The translations under genes and the position numbers were made by a program. From Thermoplasmata archaeon (GTDB taxonomy: Archaea > Thermoplasmatota > Thermoplasmata > UBA184), in the NCBI GenBank assembly GCA_027314845.1, contig DAHVAA010000080.1:1-7017 (forward strand): a DNA stretch of 7,017 nucleotides. Direction: 5' to 3'. The notes under the pieces were generated by a model. The model saw only the letters and a program-made list of their open reading frames with translations, ran no database searches and was not told the origin of the DNA. Each line of letters opens with the position of its first letter. The stretch's first letter is position 1. This document shows positions 3-6,970 of this stretch, in pieces.

Positions 3-1445
3 CCTGGGGCCCGACCGGGCGCGGTCGTGCTGCGGATGGCCCCGTTCCCGAGCGGCGCGCTCCACATCGGCAACGGGCGGATGCTCTTCGTGAACCAGTA
101 CTACCGCGAGCGATATCGAGCGAAGCTCCTGCTGGTGTTCGACGACACCATCGGCTCGGAGAAGAAGCGGGTCGAGACCGAGTTCTTCGACCTGATCCTC
201 GGCGACCTTGAACTCGCCAGAGTGCGCCCGGACATGGTCTACTACAAGTCCGACCTCATCCCCCACCACTACCCCTGGGCGCGTCGGGTCATCGAGAAGG
301 GCGGGGCGTACGTTTGCCGCTGTCCGGCCGAGACGCTCCGCGAGAACCGCGCTCAGGGCCGGACCTGCCCCGAGCGCTCCCAGACGGTCGTCGAGACCCT
401 GGACGAGTGGGAGAAGATGCTCGGCGGCGGGTACGCCGAAGGAGAGGCGGTCCTTCGTCTACGTACGGACCTCCAGGACCCGGACCCCGCCTTCCGGGAT
501 CGGGTCCTCTTCCGCATCAGCGATCAGGACCACCCCCGGGTCGGGCACAAGTACCGCGTCTGGCCGCTCCTCGAGTTCTCCTGGGCCGTGGACGACGTCG
601 AGCTCGGGGTCACGCACGTTCTCCGAGGGAAGGACCTCGTGGTCGAGGACCGGATGCAGCGGTACATCTGGGACCTCCTCGGTATCGAGGGGCCCCCATT
701 CTTTCACTGGGGGCTTCTTCGCGTGCGCGAAGCGAAGGTCTCGAAGAGCAAGTCCTACCTCGAGGTAAAGTCCGGCGTCTACGACGGCTGGGCGGACCCG
801 CGGACCTGGTCGATCCGCTCCCTCGACCGGCGCGGGATCTCGATGGAGGCCCTGCGGCAGTTCACGCTCTCCTTCGGGCTCTCCCTCGCCGACATCGAGG
901 TCCCTGCGGAGACGCTCTACGCGGAGAACCGCAAGCTCATCGACGCAGCCACGCCACGCCGATCGTTCGTGGCGGACCCCGTTCGGGTCGAGGTCCGAGA
1001 TTACCCGTTCGACCTGGCCGAGGTCGAGCTTCCGAACCACCCGGACCGCGCCGAGCTTGGCTCACGCAAGGTCATGGCCGGGCCGGTCTTCCACCTCGCC
1101 CGAAAGGACCTCGATCGCCTCGCGGGGACGGAGGTCCGTCTCAAGGACCTCATCAACGTGCAGCTGCCGAACGAGCTGCCCGGCCCGGGAGAGACGGTCC
1201 GCGCCACGTTCACGAGCCGCGAGAACCGCAAGCTCTCCCGGCTGCAGTGGGTCGGCGATAAGGAGGCGCTCGCGGTCGACATCCTCGAGGTCGACGGCGG
1301 TCGCACGAGCGGGGTCGGAGAGTCCGCGCTCCGAGGTGCCCGGGCGCGCGAGGTGTTCCAGTTCGAGCGCGTCGGGTTTGTCCGGGTCGAGCAGGCAGCG
1401 GCGGGGGGGTCGGAGCCCCTCAAGGTCGTCTACGGACACCCCTAG
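3..1445 (+). CDS. gltX: Glutamyl-tRNA synthetase, archaeal type, 5'-truncated by the window edge
   Basis: Class I aminoacyl-tRNA synthetase that charges tRNA with glutamate in the cytoplasm. The frame is open to the first bases of the window, and residues before the first possible start (GTG at 27) already match the family, so the true start lies outside. About 480 residues are visible against roughly 550-570 in archaeal homologues, so some 70-90 N-terminal residues are missing. The HIGH signature reads PSGALHIGN (near 48-74), with Asn for the last His. The second signature is KVSKS (735-749), followed by the family's GWxDPRTWSIRSLxRRGI stretch. A cysteine cluster, CRC (315-323) plus a further Cys at 366, lies in the region where many archaeal GluRSs carry a zinc-knuckle-like insert. 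The C-terminal third is the beta-barrel anticodon-binding part of the GluRS/GlnRS family. In most archaea this enzyme also misacylates tRNA-Gln for later amidation by GatDE; that role is inferred here. A 52-bp spacer separates it from the next gene. Confidence 0.96.
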   Translation, partial: PGARPGAVVLRMAPFPSGALHIGNGRMLFVNQYYRERYRAKLLLVFDDTIGSEKKRVETEFFDLILGDLELARVRPDMVYYKSDLIPHHYPWARRVIEKGGAYVCRCPAETLRENRAQGRTCPERSQTVVETLDEWEKMLGGGYAEGEAVLRLRTDLQDPDPAFRDRVLFRISDQDHPRVGHKYRVWPLLEFSWAVDDVELGVTHVLRGKDLVVEDRMQRYIWDLLGIEGPPFFHWGLLRVREAKVSKSKSYLEVKSGVYDGWADPRTWSIRSLDRRGISMEALRQFTLSFGLSLADIEVPAETLYAENRKLIDAATPRRSFVADPVRVEVRDYPFDLAEVELPNHPDRAELGSRKVMAGPVFHLARKDLDRLAGTEVRLKDLINVQLPNELPGPGETVRATFTSRENRKLSRLQWVGDKEALAVDILEVDGGRTSGVGESALRGARAREVFQFERVGFVRVEQAAAGGSEPLKVVYGHP

Positions 1446-1453
1446 CGGAAGGG

Positions 1454-1467
1454 AAACGTTTGAAGCC
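1454..1467 (+). promoter_or_regulatory. Weak TATA-like element upstream of the VOC gene
   Basis: The A/T-rich patch AAACGTTTGAAG stands out in the 52-bp GC-rich spacer between gltX and the VOC gene. Its centre is about 37 nt before the ATG at 1498, the same spacing as the clearer TTAAAT box before the aldolase gene. This would place transcription start about 11 nt before the ATG. GGGAG at 1491-1495 is a Shine-Dalgarno-like sequence, but only 2 nt from the ATG. The match to an archaeal TATA box is poor, so read-through from gltX is equally possible. Confidence 0.3.
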
Positions 1468-1497
1468 CTCCGCATCGCTCGGGAAGTGTAGGGAGTC

Positions 1498-1887
1498 ATG
1501 AAGTTCCTGCATACGTCGATCACGGTCCGTCATATGGACGAGAGCCTCGCGTTCTACACCGAGGTCCTCGGGCTCGAGTTCGAGCGCCGCCGCACGATCC
1601 CCGAGAACCACGCGGAGATCGCGTTCGTCCGCGACCCCGCTTCGGGGGCCCGGGTCGAGCTCACCCACTGGGACGGGAAGGAGTCGTTCGAGACGGGGGA
1701 GCAGCTGGACCACCTCGCGTTCGAGGTCGAGGACCTCGACCGGTTCCTCCTCCGGGCCCGGACGAAAGGCATCCGAGTTGCGAAGGAACCGTACCGGCTC
1801 TCGGGCGGGTCGTCCCGGATCGCGTTCATCCTCGACCCGAACGACGTCTGGATCGAGCTCATCGAGCGGACCCCCCCGGCCGCGTGA
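1498..1887 (+). CDS. VOC-family (glyoxalase I-like) metalloenzyme
   Basis: A 129-residue protein of the vicinal oxygen chelate superfamily, made of two beta-alpha-beta-beta-beta modules (about residues 3-57 and 70-124). The module starts LHTSITVRHMDESLAFYTEV and LDHLAFEVEDLDRF are typical. His5, Glu54, His72 and Glu120 sit where E. coli GloA has its metal ligands (His5, Glu56, His74, Glu122), so all four appear kept and the protein should bind a divalent metal. Length matches single-domain lactoylglutathione lyases (about 130). Most archaea lack glutathione, so the substrate could be another thiol adduct, or the protein could be a different VOC enzyme such as an epimerase or dioxygenase. The ATG at 1498 fits the family's usual N-terminus exactly. 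The MFS transporter gene starts 10 bp after the stop codon, which suggests co-transcription. Confidence 0.92.
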   Translation: MKFLHTSITVRHMDESLAFYTEVLGLEFERRRTIPENHAEIAFVRDPASGARVELTHWDGKESFETGEQLDHLAFEVEDLDRFLLRARTKGIRVAKEPYRLSGGSSRIAFILDPNDVWIELIERTPPAA

Positions 1888-1897
1888 ACGGGCGATC

Positions 1898-3148
1898 GTG
1901 ACCGGACCCGAGGTGCCCCCGGCGCCGGTCGCGCACCGCCGGGCGCTCCTCGCGGTCTTTTCGTCCACGTTCTTCGTGCGGTTCGCCTTCGGGATCACGA
2001 CCTCGGTCTTCGCGAGCTACATCTCCCGGTCGACCGCCGGCATCGGGCAGGGGGAGGCCGGCGTCGTCGGCCTCGTCAGCGCGATGGCCCCGGTCGGAGA
2101 GCTCGCGACGGTACTCCTTTCGGGAGCCGCCGCCGATCGGTACGGGCGGTTTCCGGTCCTCTTCTCAGGCATCGGCGCGTCCGCGGCGATCTTCGCGCTC
2201 AAGGCGACCACCCGTTCACCGCTCGCGCTCGGCACGCTCAACCTGCTGTTCGGGGTCGCGAGCGGCGCGATCCTCGCCGCGAGCCTCGCGCTCATCGCCG
2301 ACTGGTCCGGCCCGGAGGAACGCGGCTTCGAGATGGGTCGATTCGATGCCATGAATCTCTTCGGCTGGGTCGCCGGCTTCGCCTTTGGATTCGCGGCGCT
2401 AGGCCTGGTCGACAACTCGGCGCTCTGGTTCGTCTTCCTCGTAGGGGCCGCCGTCCTCGCCGGCGGGCTCGTCGCGGCGACCCGCCTCGTGCGCGGGCTC
2501 CCGCGGCACCGGGCCGGTGCGAACTACATTTTTACGGACGTGCTCCGTCACGTCTTCCGACGCAGCGTGCTCCTCGTCTCGCTCCCCTGGCTCGTGATCT
2601 ACATGTTGATCGGCACCGAGCTGATCTTTCTCGGGTCGGCGGCGAAAGGCGTAGGGGTCTCCCCGACGCTCCTCGCGTTGGTCATCGCGGTGGGCGGGCT
2701 CCTTCTGGTCGTCACCCAGCCGTACTTCGGCCGCCTCTCCGACCGGTGGGGTCGCACCCGCCTCATGTCCGTCGGCGCCATCGGGTTCGTCCTCCTGATG
2801 CTTTTCGCGTCGCTGGTGGTCGCCTACGGTGCGCGGGTGGTCCTACTGGTCGGGCTGGGTGCGAGTGTCCTGCCGGCGCTTGCATACGGCCCCGCCGCGC
2901 TCGCCGCGCTCGCCGACCTCTCGGTGGAGATCAGTCGGGCCACGACGATGGCGATCTATTCGCTCACGATCAGCCTCGGGATGGTCCTCGGCCTCATTGC
3001 CTCCACCGGGTTATTCTCCCTCCTCGGGAACCCGGGCCTCTACGTCTTCTTCGGGTCGATCGCCGTGGCCCTGGTGGCCTTCACGTTCGCCCGGTACCGG
3101 GACCCAGGGCTCCGCGCCGCAGGCTCCGTCACGACTCCGGTTCGATGA
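1898..3148 (+). CDS. MFS transporter, 12 predicted membrane helices
   Basis: A polytopic inner-membrane secondary transporter of the major facilitator superfamily, about 416 residues, a usual length. It has two six-helix halves joined by a basic cytoplasmic loop (about residues 190-215, with LVRGLPRHRAGANYIF). The MFS motif A is present in both halves: GAAADRYGR at residues 76-84 (loop 2-3) and GRLSDRWGR at 278-286 (loop 8-9). The first helix starts almost at the N-terminus (LLAVFSSTFFVRFAFGI). I chose GTG 1898 because the in-frame sequence upstream of it is the VOC gene read in another frame; GTG 1913 is a possible alternative. No convincing Shine-Dalgarno is visible, which fits coupling to the VOC stop codon 10 bp upstream. 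Substrate cannot be read from the sequence; drug or metabolite efflux and sugar or organic-acid uptake are all open. Its last 20 bp overlap the convergent CDF gene. Confidence 0.92.
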   Translation: MTGPEVPPAPVAHRRALLAVFSSTFFVRFAFGITTSVFASYISRSTAGIGQGEAGVVGLVSAMAPVGELATVLLSGAAADRYGRFPVLFSGIGASAAIFALKATTRSPLALGTLNLLFGVASGAILAASLALIADWSGPEERGFEMGRFDAMNLFGWVAGFAFGFAALGLVDNSALWFVFLVGAAVLAGGLVAATRLVRGLPRHRAGANYIFTDVLRHVFRRSVLLVSLPWLVIYMLIGTELIFLGSAAKGVGVSPTLLALVIAVGGLLLVVTQPYFGRLSDRWGRTRLMSVGAIGFVLLMLFASLVVAYGARVVLLVGLGASVLPALAYGPAALAALADLSVEISRATTMAIYSLTISLGMVLGLIASTGLFSLLGNPGLYVFFGSIAVALVAFTFARYRDPGLRAAGSVTTPVR

Positions 3149-4013
3149 TGATGTGCCGGAGCATGGGATAGCGGCCCTTGAGACTCAGTCCGACCTCGTC
3201 AATCGTGCGCTCGATCTGGTCGGTCGTGAGCCCGTCCTTGAAGTTGATGCGCAACGCGAGGAGCGCGTCCTCCGGCCCGAGCAGCATCGACTGGAGGCTG
3301 CGGACCCGGGCGACCCGCGGGTCGCTCTCCACGATGCGGAGCAGTTCCCGCGCGACCTGGGGCGCGAGGGCCCGGCCGATGAGGTACTCGCGGCTCTCCG
3401 CGGTCAGGATGAAGCCGGTCGCGACCAGTAGGATCCCTTCGATCACGGCGGTGATGCCGTCCACGTAGTCGAGCCCGGTCTGGTAGACCACGCTCAGCCC
3501 TCCGAGCGCGACCGCGCATCCCGCGATCGTGACCAGGTCCTGGTAGAAGATCGACTTCAGCCCCTGGTTCGCGGACTCGAGCAGCGCCTGGAGCGTCTGG
3601 CGTCCGATCCGCAGCTCACGAAGGGTGATCCAGATCCCGCCGATGCTGACCAGGAGGGACGCGGCGACCACGCCGAGCGCCGCGCCGATGTGCGAGATCG
3701 GTCGCGGAGCGAGCGCCTGATCGACCCCTGCGACGATCGCGAGGATCCCCGCGATCGTGAAGGTGATGAGGATCGAGACGAACGCCCAGAAGAACCGCTC
3801 CTTCCCCCTCCCGAAGGGGTAGAGGTAGTCCGCGGGGCGACGGGAGAGGTAGAGCCCCCAGAGGAGGATCGCAGAACCGAGCAGGTCCGTGATGGTGTAG
3901 ATCGCCTGGGCGAGGACGGCGTCGCTCCCCGAGATACGGGCGATGATCAGGTTCGCGATGAAGAGAGCGAGGTTCAGCACCACCGTTGCGATGATGATGA
4001 CCTGCGGACGCAT
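3129..4013 (-). CDS. Cation diffusion facilitator (CDF) family transporter with an altered metal site
   Basis: A 294-residue membrane protein with the CDF layout: an N-terminal six-helix domain (about residues 5-200) and a cytoplasmic ferredoxin-like C-terminal domain (about 205-294). CDF proteins export divalent metals such as Zn, Fe, Mn or Co in exchange for protons. Family hallmarks include SRRPADYLYPFGRGKERFFW (residues 57-76) between helices 2 and 3, and ESREYLIG after helix 6. By hand alignment to E. coli YiiP (Asp45/Asp49 in helix 2, His153/Asp157 in helix 5), only the second residue of each pair is kept, Asp43 and Asp159. The first positions are Tyr39 and Ile155. Metal specificity is therefore unclear. 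The start is ATG (cat at 4011-4013), with a TATA-like CTTTATC upstream on the minus strand but no obvious Shine-Dalgarno. The gene is transcribed away from the aldolase gene and its 3' end overlaps the MFS gene. Confidence 0.92.
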   Translation of the reverse strand: MRPQVIIIATVVLNLALFIANLIIARISGSDAVLAQAIYTITDLLGSAILLWGLYLSRRPADYLYPFGRGKERFFWAFVSILITFTIAGILAIVAGVDQALAPRPISHIGAALGVVAASLLVSIGGIWITLRELRIGRQTLQALLESANQGLKSIFYQDLVTIAGCAVALGGLSVVYQTGLDYVDGITAVIEGILLVATGFILTAESREYLIGRALAPQVARELLRIVESDPRVARVRSLQSMLLGPEDALLALRINFKDGLTTDQIERTIDEVGLSLKGRYPMLRHIIIEPES

Positions 4014-4152
4014 CGGGCTCGGGGACCCCGGGACAGGTGGTCTCTACGGTCCGAACAACGGATAAAGCCTCGGCCGCGCCCCGGGGCAGCTCCCGGCCGC
4101 GGAGACCAACCGTTAAATCGCGAGAGCCGGTGCTTGGCACCGAGGACTTTCC
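4014..4152. promoter_or_regulatory. Divergent promoter region between the CDF and aldolase genes
   Basis: A 139-bp spacer between two divergently transcribed genes. It holds two A/T-rich boxes in otherwise GC-rich sequence. GATAAAG at 4061-4067 reads CTTTATC on the minus strand, about 51 nt before the CDF ATG. TTAAAT at 4113-4118 is centred about 37 nt before the aldolase ATG. Both resemble archaeal TATA boxes, which lie about 26 nt upstream of transcription start. A possible Shine-Dalgarno for the aldolase, GAGG at 4142-4145, is 7 nt before its ATG. The roughly 45 bp between the two boxes is GC-rich; I see no clear operator palindrome there. Confidence 0.6.
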
Positions 4153-5127
4153 ATGAACGAGACCACCGCCCACCCCCCGACCGCGGTCGGGGCCGCGGTC
4201 ACGGGCCGGAGCACCCCCCGGCGCTTCCCCCGACCGCCGCTCTCTCGGCTGGGCCTCTCGCCGGGGAAGCGCGCTCGCCTGAAGCGCCTGCTCTACGAGC
4301 ACGGCCCCGGCGGAGGGACGCTCCTGGTCCTTCCGATCGACCAGGGCTTGGAGCACGGACCCATCGACTTCTTTTCGAACCCGGACGCGCTCGACCCCCG
4401 ATACCAGTACGAGCTCGCGCACGAGGGGAAGTTCAGTGCCATCGCGCTCCACATCGGACTCGCCGAGAAGTACGGGCACGAGTTCGCGGGCGACGTCCCC
4501 CTCATCCTGAAGCTCAACGGCAAGACGTCGGTCCCCCCCGACAGCCAGGCATTCAGCCCGCTGACGGGAACGGTCGAGGACGCGGTCCGGCTGGGTGCCG
4601 ACGCGGTCGGCTACACGATCTACGTCGGCTCGCCCGCCCAGGACCGGGATTTCCGGCAGTTCCTTGAAGTGCGCCGCGACGCCGATCGCTTCGGGATGCC
4701 GGTCGTGGTCTGGGCCTATCCCCGGGGCGAGGCGATCGCCAAGAAAGGCGGGAAGGAGAGCCTCTACGCCGTCGACTACGCGGCCCGCGTCGCGCTCGAA
4801 CTCGGCGCGGACGTCGTCAAGGTGAACTACCCCGTCTCGTCGGAGAAGGACGCCGACAGCCCCGCTCCGTACAACACGCTCCGGCTCGCATCCGGCGACG
4901 CCTTCCGCAAGGTGGTGGAGAGCGCGGGGCGCGCCCTCGTGCTGGTCTCGGGCGGGGAAAAGGTCGGCGACGAGGAGCTCCTCGCGAAGGTCCGCTCCTC
5001 GCTCGATGCGGGCGCGACCGGGATCATCTTCGGCCGGAACCTCTGGCAGCGCCCGCGCGCCGAGGCACTTCGCCTGACCCGCGATCTGCATGGGATCTTC
5101 CGCGAGTACGCCCAACCGCCGACCTAG
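4153..5127 (+). CDS. Class I fructose-bisphosphate aldolase, archaeal DhnA/FbaB type
   Basis: A Schiff-base (metal-independent) aldolase that interconverts fructose 1,6-bisphosphate with dihydroxyacetone phosphate and glyceraldehyde 3-phosphate in glycolysis and gluconeogenesis. The TIM-barrel landmarks are in order: PIDQGLEHGP (residues 61-70), LILKLNGKTS (Lys120), WAYPRGE (187-193, with the Tyr proposed as acid/base in this family), DVVKVNYPV with predicted Schiff-base Lys223, and the phosphate-binding VSGGEK and GIIFGRNLWQR near the C-terminus. It has 324 residues, longer than crenarchaeal homologues (about 260-280); the excess is mostly a Pro/Arg-rich N-terminal tail of about 35 residues with no family match. 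The related 2-amino-3,7-dideoxy-heptulosonate synthase of archaeal aromatic biosynthesis is a less likely alternative. ATG 4153 is supported by GAGG 7 nt upstream and a TATA-like box at 4113-4118. The tsr3 gene follows 19 bp after the stop codon. Confidence 0.94.
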   Translation: MNETTAHPPTAVGAAVTGRSTPRRFPRPPLSRLGLSPGKRARLKRLLYEHGPGGGTLLVLPIDQGLEHGPIDFFSNPDALDPRYQYELAHEGKFSAIALHIGLAEKYGHEFAGDVPLILKLNGKTSVPPDSQAFSPLTGTVEDAVRLGADAVGYTIYVGSPAQDRDFRQFLEVRRDADRFGMPVVVWAYPRGEAIAKKGGKESLYAVDYAARVALELGADVVKVNYPVSSEKDADSPAPYNTLRLASGDAFRKVVESAGRALVLVSGGEKVGDEELLAKVRSSLDAGATGIIFGRNLWQRPRAEALRLTRDLHGIFREYAQPPT

Positions 5128-5146
5128 GGCGCCGATCCGCTCCCTG

Positions 5147-5665
5147 GTGTTCGTGGTCGGGGACGACCATCCGAAGCGTTGTACTGGCCGACGGCTCCTC
5201 CACCGGGGGCTCGCGTTCCCGTTCGGCCGCCGTACGGACGGCGCGTTCCCACCGGTCGTGCTCGACCCGTTCGCCGCCGAGCCGCTCTCGATACGGGACC
5301 GACCCATCGCGCGGCGGGGCGGACTGCTCGCAATCGACTGCTCGTGGAATCGTCTCTCCGAGCGCGGCCGCCTCGGCGCGGCGGAGCCCGGGGGGCCGCG
5401 AGGGGGCGTTCGTCGCCGGCTTCCGTTCCTGCTCGCCGCGAACCCTCAGCACTATGGGCGGGTCGGAGAGCTCAACACCGCCGAAGCGCTCGCGGCCGCG
5501 CTCTTCCTCCTCGGAGAGGCGGAGGCCGCCCGAACGCTCCTCGCGGGCTTTCCGGGCGGCCCCGCGTTCTTCGAACTGAACGGGGCGCGGCTCGAAGCCT
5601 ACGCTCATGCCACGAGCCCGACCGCCGTCGGGGTTGAGGAGCGAAGGCTCTTCAGTCCAGGGTAG
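5147..5665 (+). CDS. tsr3: Tsr3, small-subunit rRNA aminocarboxypropyltransferase (formerly DUF367)
   Basis: Tsr3 transfers the 3-amino-3-carboxypropyl group of S-adenosylmethionine to a (methyl-pseudo)uridine in helix 31 of small-subunit rRNA, near the decoding site; it is an archaeal and eukaryotic ribosome-maturation enzyme. With the GTG 5147 start it has 172 residues, close to archaeal homologues. The N-terminal motif GDDHPKRCTG (residues 5-14) corresponds to the family's DPKKCT element. It is followed by AIDCSWNR (around Asp64-Trp67), PFLLAANPQHYGR (93-105) and ELNTAEALAAALFLLG, the most conserved stretch, part of the SPOUT-like SAM-binding fold. An in-frame ATG at 5090 would overlap the aldolase by 38 bp and add 19 residues with no family counterpart. 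GTG 5147 puts the conserved motif near the N-terminus as in homologues, though GTG 5153 cannot be excluded. No promoter is visible in the 19-bp gap, so co-transcription with the aldolase is likely. Confidence 0.91.
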   Translation: MFVVGDDHPKRCTGRRLLHRGLAFPFGRRTDGAFPPVVLDPFAAEPLSIRDRPIARRGGLLAIDCSWNRLSERGRLGAAEPGGPRGGVRRRLPFLLAANPQHYGRVGELNTAEALAAALFLLGEAEAARTLLAGFPGGPAFFELNGARLEAYAHATSPTAVGVEERRLFSPG

Positions 5666-5728: not shown

Positions 5729-6634
5729 TTACGGGGGCTCCGCAGGATACGAGCGGCCCTCGCTGGAGAGGTGGTGGACCCGCACCTCGCCGACCCCCGA
5801 AAGCGGTCGGTCGAGCGGCAGGACGCCGATGATCACGCCTCCGTAGCGCTCGTAGATCCGGGTGGTGTGGAGCGTGAGGCATCGCCCGCCGTAGAGGGGA
5901 CGACCCACCACGTCCGGGTCGTGCCCTCGAAGCACGAGCCTGAGGCCGGACGACGAGAGGAACCGGTCGAGCTCCCGAGTACCCCAGCTGGGAGCGGCAC
6001 CGCGGCGGTCCCGCGAGGCGTCGCACTCGGCCCATACGAGCTCGCAGAGCCGGTCCTCGTCGATCGCATCGAAGGCGGACGGCCAGGCGCCCGGGGGAAG
6101 CTCGCGGGGGAACCCCGCGTGGGCGAGATACGCGCCGTTCTCGGTGTAGGCAGCGTAGCCGCCGCGTTCTAGGAGCCCGACCACGCGATGGTAGCGCTCC
6201 ACCTCGGGGCCCCAGAGGTCGTCGATCTCCTCCGGCAGCATGTGCGGATAACAGGGGACCCTGCGGACCGTCTCGTGATTCCCCTGCAGCAGGTAGACCC
6301 GCTCGGGGAACCGCGCGGTCAGGGAGAGGAGATAGAGAGCGTTCGCGACCGAGCCGTTCGGACAATCGTCGGGAGGTCGGTCGACGTAGTCGCCGAGGCC
6401 CATGAGGATCCGGTCGGTCCCCGGGGCTTCGGCCGCCGCGCGGACGTCCAGGGTAGAATGCCAGTCGCCGTGGGTGTCGCCGAAGACCACGAGCTCGGTC
6501 GCGGGCCGCGACGGCAGGCGAAGAAGGGGCGGCCGGACCGGCACGGTCCGTTCGAGCTCATCCAGGAGGCGATCGGCGCCCTCCGGGTCGAGGTCAAGTA
6601 TCGCGGGCGGCGGAAGGAGCTCCCCAGAAGGCAT
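5729..6634 (-). CDS. PPP-family metallophosphatase (serine/threonine phosphatase-like)
   Basis: A 301-residue cytoplasmic phosphoesterase of the calcineurin-like superfamily, closest in motif pattern to PPP protein phosphatases. The dinuclear-metal motifs are in order: GDTHGD (residues 52-57), GDYVDR (81-86), LQGNHE (116-121), LAHAGF (170-175, in place of eukaryotic HGG) and RGHD (236-239). All metal-ligand residues are present: Asp53, His55, Asp82, Asn119, His172 and His238. Arg86 is kept; the Arg of the eukaryotic LRGNHE signature is Gln117. The WAECD stretch near residue 201 corresponds to the substrate-site WSDP of PP1-type enzymes. The first 45 residues are variable. The start is well supported: AGGAGGTC (6641-6648, minus strand) is a near-perfect Shine-Dalgarno 6-7 nt from the ATG. 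Protein substrates are unknown; a diadenosine tetraphosphatase-like activity is possible. Upstream lies tRNA-Leu, only 26 bp away, with no room for an obvious separate promoter. Confidence 0.92.
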   Translation of the reverse strand: MPSGELLPPPAILDLDPEGADRLLDELERTVPVRPPLLRLPSRPATELVVFGDTHGDWHSTLDVRAAAEAPGTDRILMGLGDYVDRPPDDCPNGSVANALYLLSLTARFPERVYLLQGNHETVRRVPCYPHMLPEEIDDLWGPEVERYHRVVGLLERGGYAAYTENGAYLAHAGFPRELPPGAWPSAFDAIDEDRLCELVWAECDASRDRRGAAPSWGTRELDRFLSSSGLRLVLRGHDPDVVGRPLYGGRCLTLHTTRIYERYGGVIIGVLPLDRPLSGVGEVRVHHLSSEGRSYPAEPP

Positions 6635-6648: not shown

Positions 6649-6674
6649 GAACTATCGGAGTGCGGGGGGCCGGA

Positions 6675-6709
6675 GTTCCCGGCGGCCGGCGAGTTCCGCC
6701 GGCCGGCCC
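6675..6709 (-). other. tRNA-Leu T-loop intron (59/60), 35 nt, imperfect BHB
   Basis: The T stem GCCGG (6720-6716) and CCGGC (6673-6669) form the outer helix. The predicted 3' bulge is ACU (6676-6674) and the 5' bulge AAG (6711-6709). The central helix pairs U6715-A6677, U6714-G6678 and C6713-G6679, but A6712 faces G6680. Inside, G6708-C6681 and G6707-C6682 pair with C6706 bulged, then a perfect 9-bp hairpin (6705-6697 with 6691-6683) closes a GAACU loop. Cutting between the second and third bulge nucleotides gives a canonical UUCAAAU loop. The exact boundaries are inferred from the BHB rule. Confidence 0.83.
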
Positions 6710-6757
6710 TTTGAACCGGCGAATGCCCTGGGCAACAGGGTCCTAAGCCCTGCCTCG

Positions 6758-6781
6758 TTGGCCCCGTCCGGACCGGACGGA
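6758..6781 (-). other. tRNA-Leu D-arm intron (about 21/22), 24 nt, perfect BHB
   Basis: The motif is complete. Outer helix: CUC (6790-6788) with GAG (6756-6754). 3' bulge: AAC (6759-6757). Central 4-bp helix: GGCC (6787-6784) with GGCC (6763-6760). 5' bulge: AAU (6783-6781). Inner helix: 7 bp, CCGUCCG (6780-6774) with CGGACGG (6770-6764), closed by a GUC loop. Cutting after the second nucleotide of each bulge joins GGCCAA to CGAGG and restores a normal-length D arm. GGCCAA occurs at both ends, giving a 6-nt direct repeat across the junctions. Confidence 0.9.
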
Positions 6782-6832
6782 TTGGCCGAGCTGGAGCACC
6801 CCCGCACAGTGAAGAGTATCGATCGGGGAAAG

Positions 6833-6939
6833 TAGCCCCGGCAGGAGTTCCGGCCCTCGGGATTCACCGTACCCGCGGCGTTCGAACCTGCGTCGCGAGA
6901 TCCAGAGTCTCGCATGATTGGCCACTACACCACGGGGCT
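6833..6939 (-). tRNA. tRNA-Gln(CUG) with a T-loop intron
   Basis: On the minus strand, exons 6939-6881 and 6846-6833 join into a 73-nt tRNA. Acceptor AGCCCCG pairs fully with CGGGGCU; the A1-U72 pair is typical of archaeal tRNA-Gln. The D arm is G10-U25, U11-A24 and G12-C23 with G18G19 in the loop. Anticodon stem CGAGA/UCUCG encloses loop CUCUGGA, giving anticodon CUG. The variable region is CGAC. T stem GCAGG (6891-6887) pairs fully with CCUGC (6845-6841), and the spliced T loop is UUCGAAU. Discriminator is A73 and CCA is not encoded. The gene decodes CAG. In most archaea it would be charged as Glu-tRNA-Gln and then amidated by GatDE; neither subunit gene is in this window. A TATA-like box about 28 nt upstream supports transcription from this strand. 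Confidence 0.95.
6847..6880 (-). other. tRNA-Gln T-loop intron (59/60), 34 nt, BHB motif
   Basis: The T stem (GCAGG/CCUGC) is the outer helix. 3' bulge: ACU (6848-6846). Central helix: UUCG (6886-6883) with CGGA (6852-6849), including one U-G pair. 5' bulge: AAC (6882-6880). Inner helix: GCC (6879-6877) with GGC (6855-6853), then a small internal loop and a CGGG/CCCG stem (6875-6872 with 6861-6858) closing a 10-nt loop. Cutting between the second and third nucleotides of each bulge gives exactly a 7-nt UUCGAAU T loop, which is why these boundaries were chosen over the adjacent 60/61 option. Confidence 0.9.
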
Positions 6940-6964: not shown

Positions 6965-6970
6965 GATAAA
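6965..6970 (-). promoter_or_regulatory. TATA-like box of the tRNA-Gln / tRNA-Leu unit
   Basis: GATAAA on the plus strand reads TTTATC on the minus strand, flanked by AACG. Its centre is about 28 nt upstream of the tRNA-Gln 5' end (6939), the distance expected for an archaeal TATA box with transcription starting within a few bases of the mature end. The same TTTATC core occurs before the CDF gene. No equally good box lies in the 27-nt gap before tRNA-Leu, so it may drive both tRNAs and possibly the phosphatase gene. The remaining bases to the window end hold no feature I can support. Confidence 0.6.

Follow-up and report, generated by a model that had tools for sequence, protein, structure and literature searches.

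How could a normal glutamine tRNA arise from a gene whose T arm is broken by an insert? The question is raised by the tRNA-Gln(CUG) gene of the window (the whole 7,017-nt stretch of Thermoplasmata DNA analyzed here), in which 34 nt lie between the sequence GCAGG TTCGAA and its continuation, T60 plus the 3′ strand of the T stem (T CCTGC). The insert is best read as a bulge-helix-bulge (BHB) intron at position 59/60 that would be excised by the archaeal splicing endonuclease (EndA). Taken together with the neighboring tRNA-Leu(UAG), which was overlooked in an earlier reading of the window made from sequence alone, the locus very probably holds two adjacent tRNA genes with non-canonical BHB introns that are spliced by EndA and the ligase RtcB into normal tRNAs. 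The features are listed in Table 1; the protein-coding neighbors at 3-5665 show nothing unusual.

Table 1. Features of the window, with positions counted from its first nucleotide.
Feature	Position	Strand	Remarks
Pre-tRNA-Gln(CUG)	6939..6833	minus	107 nt
tRNA-Gln(CUG) exon 1	6939-6881	minus	59 nt, positions 1-59, 3′ end TTCGAA
tRNA-Gln(CUG) T-loop intron	6880-6847	minus	34 nt, 59/60, strict BHB
tRNA-Gln(CUG) exon 2	6846-6833	minus	TCCTGC CGGGGCT A, positions 60-73, discriminator A73, CCA not encoded
tRNA-Gln(CUG) T arm with BHB	6891-6841	minus	Outer helix 6891-6887/6845-6841; central helix 6886-6883/6852-6849; bulges 6882-6880 and 6848-6846
TATA-like box TTTATC	6965..6970	minus	Begins 31 nt upstream of tRNA-Gln
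tRNA-Leu(UAG)	6805..6661	minus	27 nt from tRNA-Gln, downstream
tRNA-Leu(UAG) exon 1	6805-6782	minus	
tRNA-Leu(UAG) D-loop intron	6781-6758	minus	24 nt, between positions 21 and 22 (our own count), strict BHB
tRNA-Leu(UAG) exon 2	6757-6710	minus	Anticodon, variable arm, 5′ T stem, TTCAAA
tRNA-Leu(UAG) T-loop intron	6709-6675	minus	35 nt, 59/60; central helix 3 bp plus A57 facing G
tRNA-Leu(UAG) exon 3	6674-6661	minus	
GluRS, cut at window start	within 3-5665		PF00749
Glyoxalase family	within 3-5665		PF00903
MFS transporter	within 3-5665		PF07690
Cation efflux protein	within 3-5665	minus	PF01545
DeoC/LacD-family aldolase	within 3-5665		PF01791
Ribosome biogenesis protein	within 3-5665		PF04034

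The minimum-energy fold of the tRNA-Gln T arm is a BHB, consisting of the outer helix GCAGG/CCUGC, a 5′ bulge AAC, a 4-bp central helix UUCG/CGGA, a 3′ bulge ACU, and an inner helix. EndA usually cuts between the second and third base of a bulge, and removal of the intron in silico leaves a T loop of UUCGAAU and a five-pair T stem. The sequence-only reading had proposed a 34-nt intron at the 59/60 junction of tRNA-Gln(CUG) within a full BHB that uses the T stem as its outer helix. Its coordinates, anticodon, intron length, and junction are borne out, as is the BHB. Fold energies of the pre-tRNA and the T arm were no better than those of shuffled sequences (z of -0.84 and -0.05). The four central pairs survive in 5.0% of shuffled introns (19,895 of 400,000), compared to 20 of 20 real introns.

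ARAGORN found zero tRNAs in the window and likewise did not recognize the unspliced tRNA-Gln, and it called tRNA-Gln(ctg) once the 34 nt were deleted; the Rfam tRNA model scored the unspliced gene at 23.6 bits, below the gathering score of 29. The expectation that the gene would be missed without intron models was thus correct for the window but not always for its relatives: at 16 scanned loci with the gene, ARAGORN called tRNA-Gln(ctg) 13 times, with an end short of the true 3′ end. In practical terms, tools without BHB models can miss such genes or misplace their ends. Of the 20 loci listed, including the window, 15 have a strict TATA-like pattern 31-32 nt upstream of the gene, and TTAT was seen by eye at roughly the TATA-box spot in all 20. 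This is a putative promoter element.

Relatives were gathered by a search with the GluRS fragment of the window, which gave 36 loci, 34 of them titled as Thermoplasmata MAGs; the genome is accordingly not crenarchaeal, where the earlier reading had called it not obviously so. The tRNA-Gln(CUG) gene was found in 20 of these loci, each time with a T-loop insert (20/20), whereas the other 16 had no tRNA-Gln(CUG) within the stretch available, among them L023 despite 9.5 kb downstream of GluRS. One gene (L024) was excluded from the alignment as it is cut by a contig end, with the insert present, and the intron is 34 nt long in all 20 full-length genes (19 loci and the window). Across these 20 sequences, the exons are invariant in 72 of 73 columns (58 of 59 in exon 1, where column 9 varies) compared to 4 of 34 in the intron, and mean pairwise identity is 0.99 for exons and 0.63 for introns. 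The BHB central helix is nevertheless complete in every copy, unchanged except for two pairs that alternate between U-G and U-A, and 3-nt bulges flank a 4-bp central helix at all 20 junction pairs. Covariation within this alignment alone was not significant (57 of 500 shuffles reached the covariation score), because the exons do not vary. With fold energy and tRNA-Gln covariation both weak, the case for an intron rests on the exon/intron contrast, on tRNA-Leu, and on recurrence across other tRNAs.

The tRNA-Leu(UAG) gene carries one intron in the D loop and another in the T loop, and ARAGORN recognized tRNA-Leu(tag) when both were deleted and not when only one was deleted. Both introns occur in all 19 tRNA-Leu(UAG) copies that match the exon pattern. 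In the D-loop intron, all 4 bp of the central helix are formed in 19 of 19 copies, whereas 18 copies of the T-loop intron have 3 bp with A57 facing G and one copy has 4 bp, which leaves this intron one pair short of a strict BHB. The alignment contains 26 cells changed on both sides of a pair versus 8.5 in shuffled alignments, none of which (0 of 500) reached the real count, and compensatory changes are seen in the inner helix of the D-loop intron. The A57-G combination (columns 100/132 of the alignment A6) is a conserved non-Watson-Crick partnership beside the 5′ bulge, which is also found in most TTCA-containing tRNAs decoded, with a few copies having U instead. The 3′ end of tRNA-Leu(UAG) is 26 nt upstream of the start codon of a gene for a calcineurin-like phosphoesterase (5729-6634, minus strand; PF00149), with an AGGAGGT site between the two. 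From this spacing, the tRNA and the phosphoesterase mRNA may be part of a common transcript.

Other tRNA genes are interrupted in the same way. In one relative, UBA61 (genome G003, locus L034), the Rfam tRNA model gave 42 matches, and 44 tRNA genes were obtained in total after weak matches were read individually and Leu(UAG) and His(GUG) were found by other means. T-loop introns occur in 14 of the 44 genes, namely those for Ala(GGC), Arg(UCU), Arg(UCG), Asn(GUU), Asp(GUC), Gln(CUG), Glu(CUC), Gly(UCC), His(GUG), Leu(UAG), Lys(UUU), Ser(GGA), Ser(GCU), and Ser(CGA). Lys(UUU) and Leu(UAG) have a D-loop intron in addition, and Met(CAU) and Arg(GCG) (L077 and L081) appear to have a D-loop intron each. 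Five further genes (L066, L068, L071, L073, and L074) have introns near the anticodon, as identified by the intron mode of ARAGORN. The tRNA-Gln(UUG) gene of this genome is intact (L065), and no intact tRNA-Gln(CUG) was seen among the tRNAs read. No tRNA-Pro gene was among them either, and the tRNA-Pro genes may be interrupted in ways that the models do not span.

In three other relatives (G001, G004, and G005), T-loop introns interrupt much the same set of isoacceptors, and 12, 13, and 14 such introns were recovered from these genomes. The decoding script gave nothing for 17 of 71 sources, including L075 and L080 (decoded separately), and these were not counted as absences. The T-loop intron had been regarded as unusual, which is justified with respect to its position and lineage but not as a lone case, given the two introns of the adjacent tRNA-Leu and a dozen or more T-loop introns in each of four relatives. 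Several introns within one tRNA are found in both Leu(UAG) (D and T loops, 19/19) and Lys(UUU), the latter combining a long D region with a T-loop intron in G003, G001, and G005. By eye, tRNA-Lys(UUU) appears to have three introns (D loop, 37/38, and T loop) in L143 (genome G187) and in the partial printout of L171 (G073). When 14 T arms of different tRNAs were aligned, 20 cells had changes on both sides of a pair versus 4.3 in shuffles (0 of 500 as high); the T stem accounts for 18 of the 20, as expected of any tRNA, and the relevant point is that the register of the T stem is kept across the insert.

The distribution of these introns was examined in 400 genomes drawn from the class Thermoplasmata using two covariance models, both calibrated briefly, so that their E-values are rough. 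With the model of the tRNA-Gln gene, 81 of 400 genomes had an intron-spanning match of at least 83 bits in the list as read by the author, two of them cut by a contig end. Among the 25 listed matches 73 nt in length (down to about 74 bits), none came from the 81 intron-bearing genomes. Six such matches were inspected as intact tRNA-Gln, of which three proved to be Gln(UUG). Uninterrupted tRNA-Gln(CUG) genes with an empty site occur in G089, G250, and G146, which are outgroup genomes of the class outside the 81, and the spliced window tRNA is identical to them at 67, 62, and 62 of 73 positions, the last two sequences being identical to each other. Genomes G347 and G311 each have two full-length intron-bearing tRNA-Gln(CUG) matches on different contigs, which represent either a duplication or a mixed bin.

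The second model describes the T-arm BHB alone and was trained on G003 and the window, and its strong hits in G003 are thus by construction, except for tRNA-His (27.7 bits). At E ≤ 0.001, at least one match was found in 153 of 400 genomes, with about 0.4 chance matches expected if the rough E-values hold. All 81 genomes with the tRNA-Gln intron had matches (2-13 each, median 9), as did 72 of the other 319, with a single match in 36 of these 72. The Gly gene L080 had been misplaced in the first T-arm alignment and was excluded from the model, which then missed this gene in G003; the counts are therefore lower bounds. A laxer search of 20 chosen genomes gave no match in two outgroups and a single weak match in another (G089, E of 0.0057). 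Thirty hits were decoded, and genomes with one or two hits supplied 16 of these. The script identified a matching seven-pair acceptor stem for 23 of the 30, visual inspection added 3 more, and for the last 4 the printouts stop before the 5′ end. Anticodon calls by the script are unreliable where a further 37/38 intron seems to be present (L163, L176, L177, L186, and L143). Clean cases include Lys(UUU) (G033), Leu(UAA) (G134, G128, G183, G095, and G109), and Arg(CCG) (G116), and hence there are sporadic T-loop introns beyond the main group as well. In an EndA tree of 28 genomes, the 9 with 6-14 T-loop matches form one group (support 89/99) and the other 19 have 0-3; only this intron-rich group is used here, as the tree has very long branches and uneven composition.

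EndA of five close relatives is encoded in one frame with two catalytic-type domains (5/5), and a full scan of three of the proteins identified two catalytic-type and two N-type stretches in one frame in each. These three proteins do not match the heterotetrameric (alpha beta)2 arrangement of Thermoproteales. From its domain make-up, the splicing endonuclease of these relatives looks like the fused alpha'2 type, although its oligomeric state is predicted from sequence. EndA was found in all 25 class genomes searched, in 20 of them in the fused form (two PF01974 matches). The type of EndA was considered as the sole explanation for the intron expansion and was rejected, as fused EndA also occurs in some genomes without T-loop introns, such as G142 and G250. 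By score, the closest solved EndA is that of Methanopyrus kandleri (5x89), listed as (alpha beta)2 in the excerpted text of PMC6379350, followed by that of Archaeoglobus fulgidus. The alpha'2 arrangement is that of A. fulgidus and Thermoplasma acidophilum, and the same excerpt describes these enzymes as narrow in specificity, while noting that A. fulgidus EndA can excise a relaxed 37/38 intron from full-length pre-tRNA.

A broad-specificity loop of the CSL/ASL kind was looked for as an insertion relative to A. fulgidus EndA, and none was seen in stretch 18-47 of the C-terminal unit, a comparison that is indirect as the placement of the loop is itself inferred. On this placement, the loop lysines of the crenarchaeal and ARMAN enzymes (K44 and K161 in PMC6379350, in excerpt) fall immediately ahead of the 3p1z and 4fz2 segments aligned with the EndA stretch. 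RtcB was found in six of seven genomes and was not found in G209. Ferroplasma acidarmanus presumably belongs to the same class as the window lineage. It has a homodimeric EndA that cleaves minimal BHB substrates, and cleavage of a relaxed motif is also attributed to homodimeric forms (PMC8707768, in excerpt).

From these genes and motifs, the two tRNA genes would be expressed and spliced as follows. Each intron would pair with the tRNA's own sequence to form a BHB, the cuts made by EndA (one fused chain, alpha'2-like) would fall after the second base of each 3-nt bulge, and ligation of the exons by RtcB would then yield a normal tRNA with a normal T loop (UUCGAAU). The most likely route is that EndA cuts a BHB wherever it is located in the tRNA. 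In the T loop, half of the central helix would be provided by positions 54-57 (TTCR), which are common to most tRNAs, so that nearly every T loop could make a cleavable BHB with an intron ending in YGRAAC. Such a portable half-site may explain why about a dozen tRNAs in each genome are interrupted at one position, and it would fit the interruption of up to 14 tRNAs at one site by introns with otherwise unrelated cores. Where the T loop is of the TTCA type, an A faces a G at the fourth central pair, as in nearly all tRNA-Leu copies, so such BHBs would be slightly relaxed, which counts against the proposal since alpha'2 enzymes are described as narrow (PMC6379350, in excerpt).

If the interrupted genes were decayed pseudogenes or integration scars, decoding would be left to other tRNAs such as Gln(UUG) and other tRNA-Leu species, and the intact tRNA-Gln(UUG) of G003 could in principle read CAG. 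This explanation is hardly credible in view of exons that are near-invariant while their introns diverge, a BHB that is kept in every tRNA-Gln copy and every Leu D-loop intron, a conserved TATA-like element, and an interrupted gene common to 81 genomes that contributed none of the listed 73-nt matches. Only marginally more probable, and still very improbable, is that the insert is retained, giving a mature tRNA with an enlarged T arm, or is processed by another nuclease. The insert breaks the T loop whereas the exons restore UUCRAAU and a paired stem in the tRNAs decoded. Moreover, the 3-nt bulges and central helix typical of an EndA substrate are conserved, and G003 also has five genes with introns near the anticodon, the usual substrates of EndA. 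Excision by EndA and ligation by RtcB thus remain the preferred reading for both genes.

A separate matter is the history of the T-loop introns, which may have spread recently by transposition between tRNA genes instead of being old and vertically inherited. The use of the same site in up to 14 tRNAs and a BHB half supplied by most tRNAs would suit such a spread, as would the few pairs of intron cores from different tRNAs that are similar at z > 3 (5/91, 1/91, 1/66, and 3/78 pairs in four genomes). Beyond these few pairs, the comparison of intron cores does not support spread from tRNA to tRNA, as cores within one genome are otherwise unrelated (mean z of 0.5-0.6). The interruption of largely the same isoacceptors in G001, G003, G004, and G005 argues for inheritance since their ancestor, and the intron-rich genomes group together in the EndA tree. 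Recent transposition is accordingly considered unlikely, although less so than the two explanations above.

On a wider scale, it is somewhat probable that a sizeable part of the Thermoplasmata, independently of the Crenarchaeota, filled its tRNA genes with 59/60 and D-loop introns and yet retained a fused alpha'2-like EndA that lacks the broad-specificity loop. If so, intron position would be limited only by the strictness of the BHB and not by EndA type, and introns could generally insert into the T loop, since half of the recognition motif is already present in most tRNAs. A euryarchaeal class with many T-loop-intron genomes and a fused alpha'2-like enzyme would also provide a direct test of the rule that EndA and introns co-evolve.

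The intron type itself is known, as 59/60 is among the non-canonical positions of archaeal tRNA introns (PMC4090602, in excerpt), which occur mainly in Crenarchaeota and above all in Thermoproteales (excerpts of PMC4090602 and PMC3218864). No report of T-loop introns in Thermoplasmata or Thermoplasmatota was seen among the papers listed in searches of open-licence PMC literature, and within this scope the lineage, the scale, and the combination with a fused alpha'2-like enzyme seem not to have been reported before. In Euryarchaeota, about 8% (<10%) of tRNA genes have introns, and alpha4 or alpha2 enzymes go with one intron at the canonical site only (PMC4090602, in excerpt). Rich sets of non-canonical introns have been tied to (alpha beta)2, epsilon2, or loop-bearing endonucleases (excerpts of PMC6379350 and PMC4033280).

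Compared to the canonical 37/38 introns of Euryarchaeota, those described here would be expected to follow the same EndA/RtcB route, and introns near the anticodon also occur in G003. They differ in position and in the tRNA half of the central helix, which includes anticodon bases in canonical introns (PMC4090602, in excerpt) and is TTCR here. Non-canonical introns are reported for a few Euryarchaeota, namely three thermophilic methanogens (PMC3218864, in excerpt), and one BHB model of tRNAscan-SE 2.0 was trained on introns of Crenarchaeota and Euryarchaeota (PMC8450103, in excerpt), so that some euryarchaeal cases are known. These resemble the present introns in being euryarchaeal and non-canonically placed, but the excerpts of the two papers give neither Thermoplasmata nor a bias to the T loop. 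The Asgard Atabeyarchaeia and Freyarchaeia, with often non-canonical introns in 92-95% of their tRNA genes (PMC11291895, in excerpt), are likewise a lineage recently reported with many such introns, although of a different phylum, and the excerpt describes neither their EndA type nor a preference for the T loop. Korarchaeum cryptofilum combines an alpha2 EndA that has a specific loop with non-canonical introns and is called the only such archaeon in the excerpt of PMC4033280; it shares with the present relatives a one-protein endonuclease alongside non-canonical introns, whereas no insertion is seen here at the inferred place of the loop. In intron architecture there is a likeness to the Crenarchaeota and Thermoproteales, which also have BHBs at the junctions, the 59/60 position, several introns per tRNA, and many interrupted tRNAs per genome. 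Transposition between tRNA genes has been proposed for the spread of introns in Thermoproteales; there is little sign here of intron sequences common to different tRNAs. The host is a member of the Thermoplasmata instead, and its relatives encode EndA as one fused alpha'2-like chain where the crenarchaeal enzymes are (alpha beta)2.
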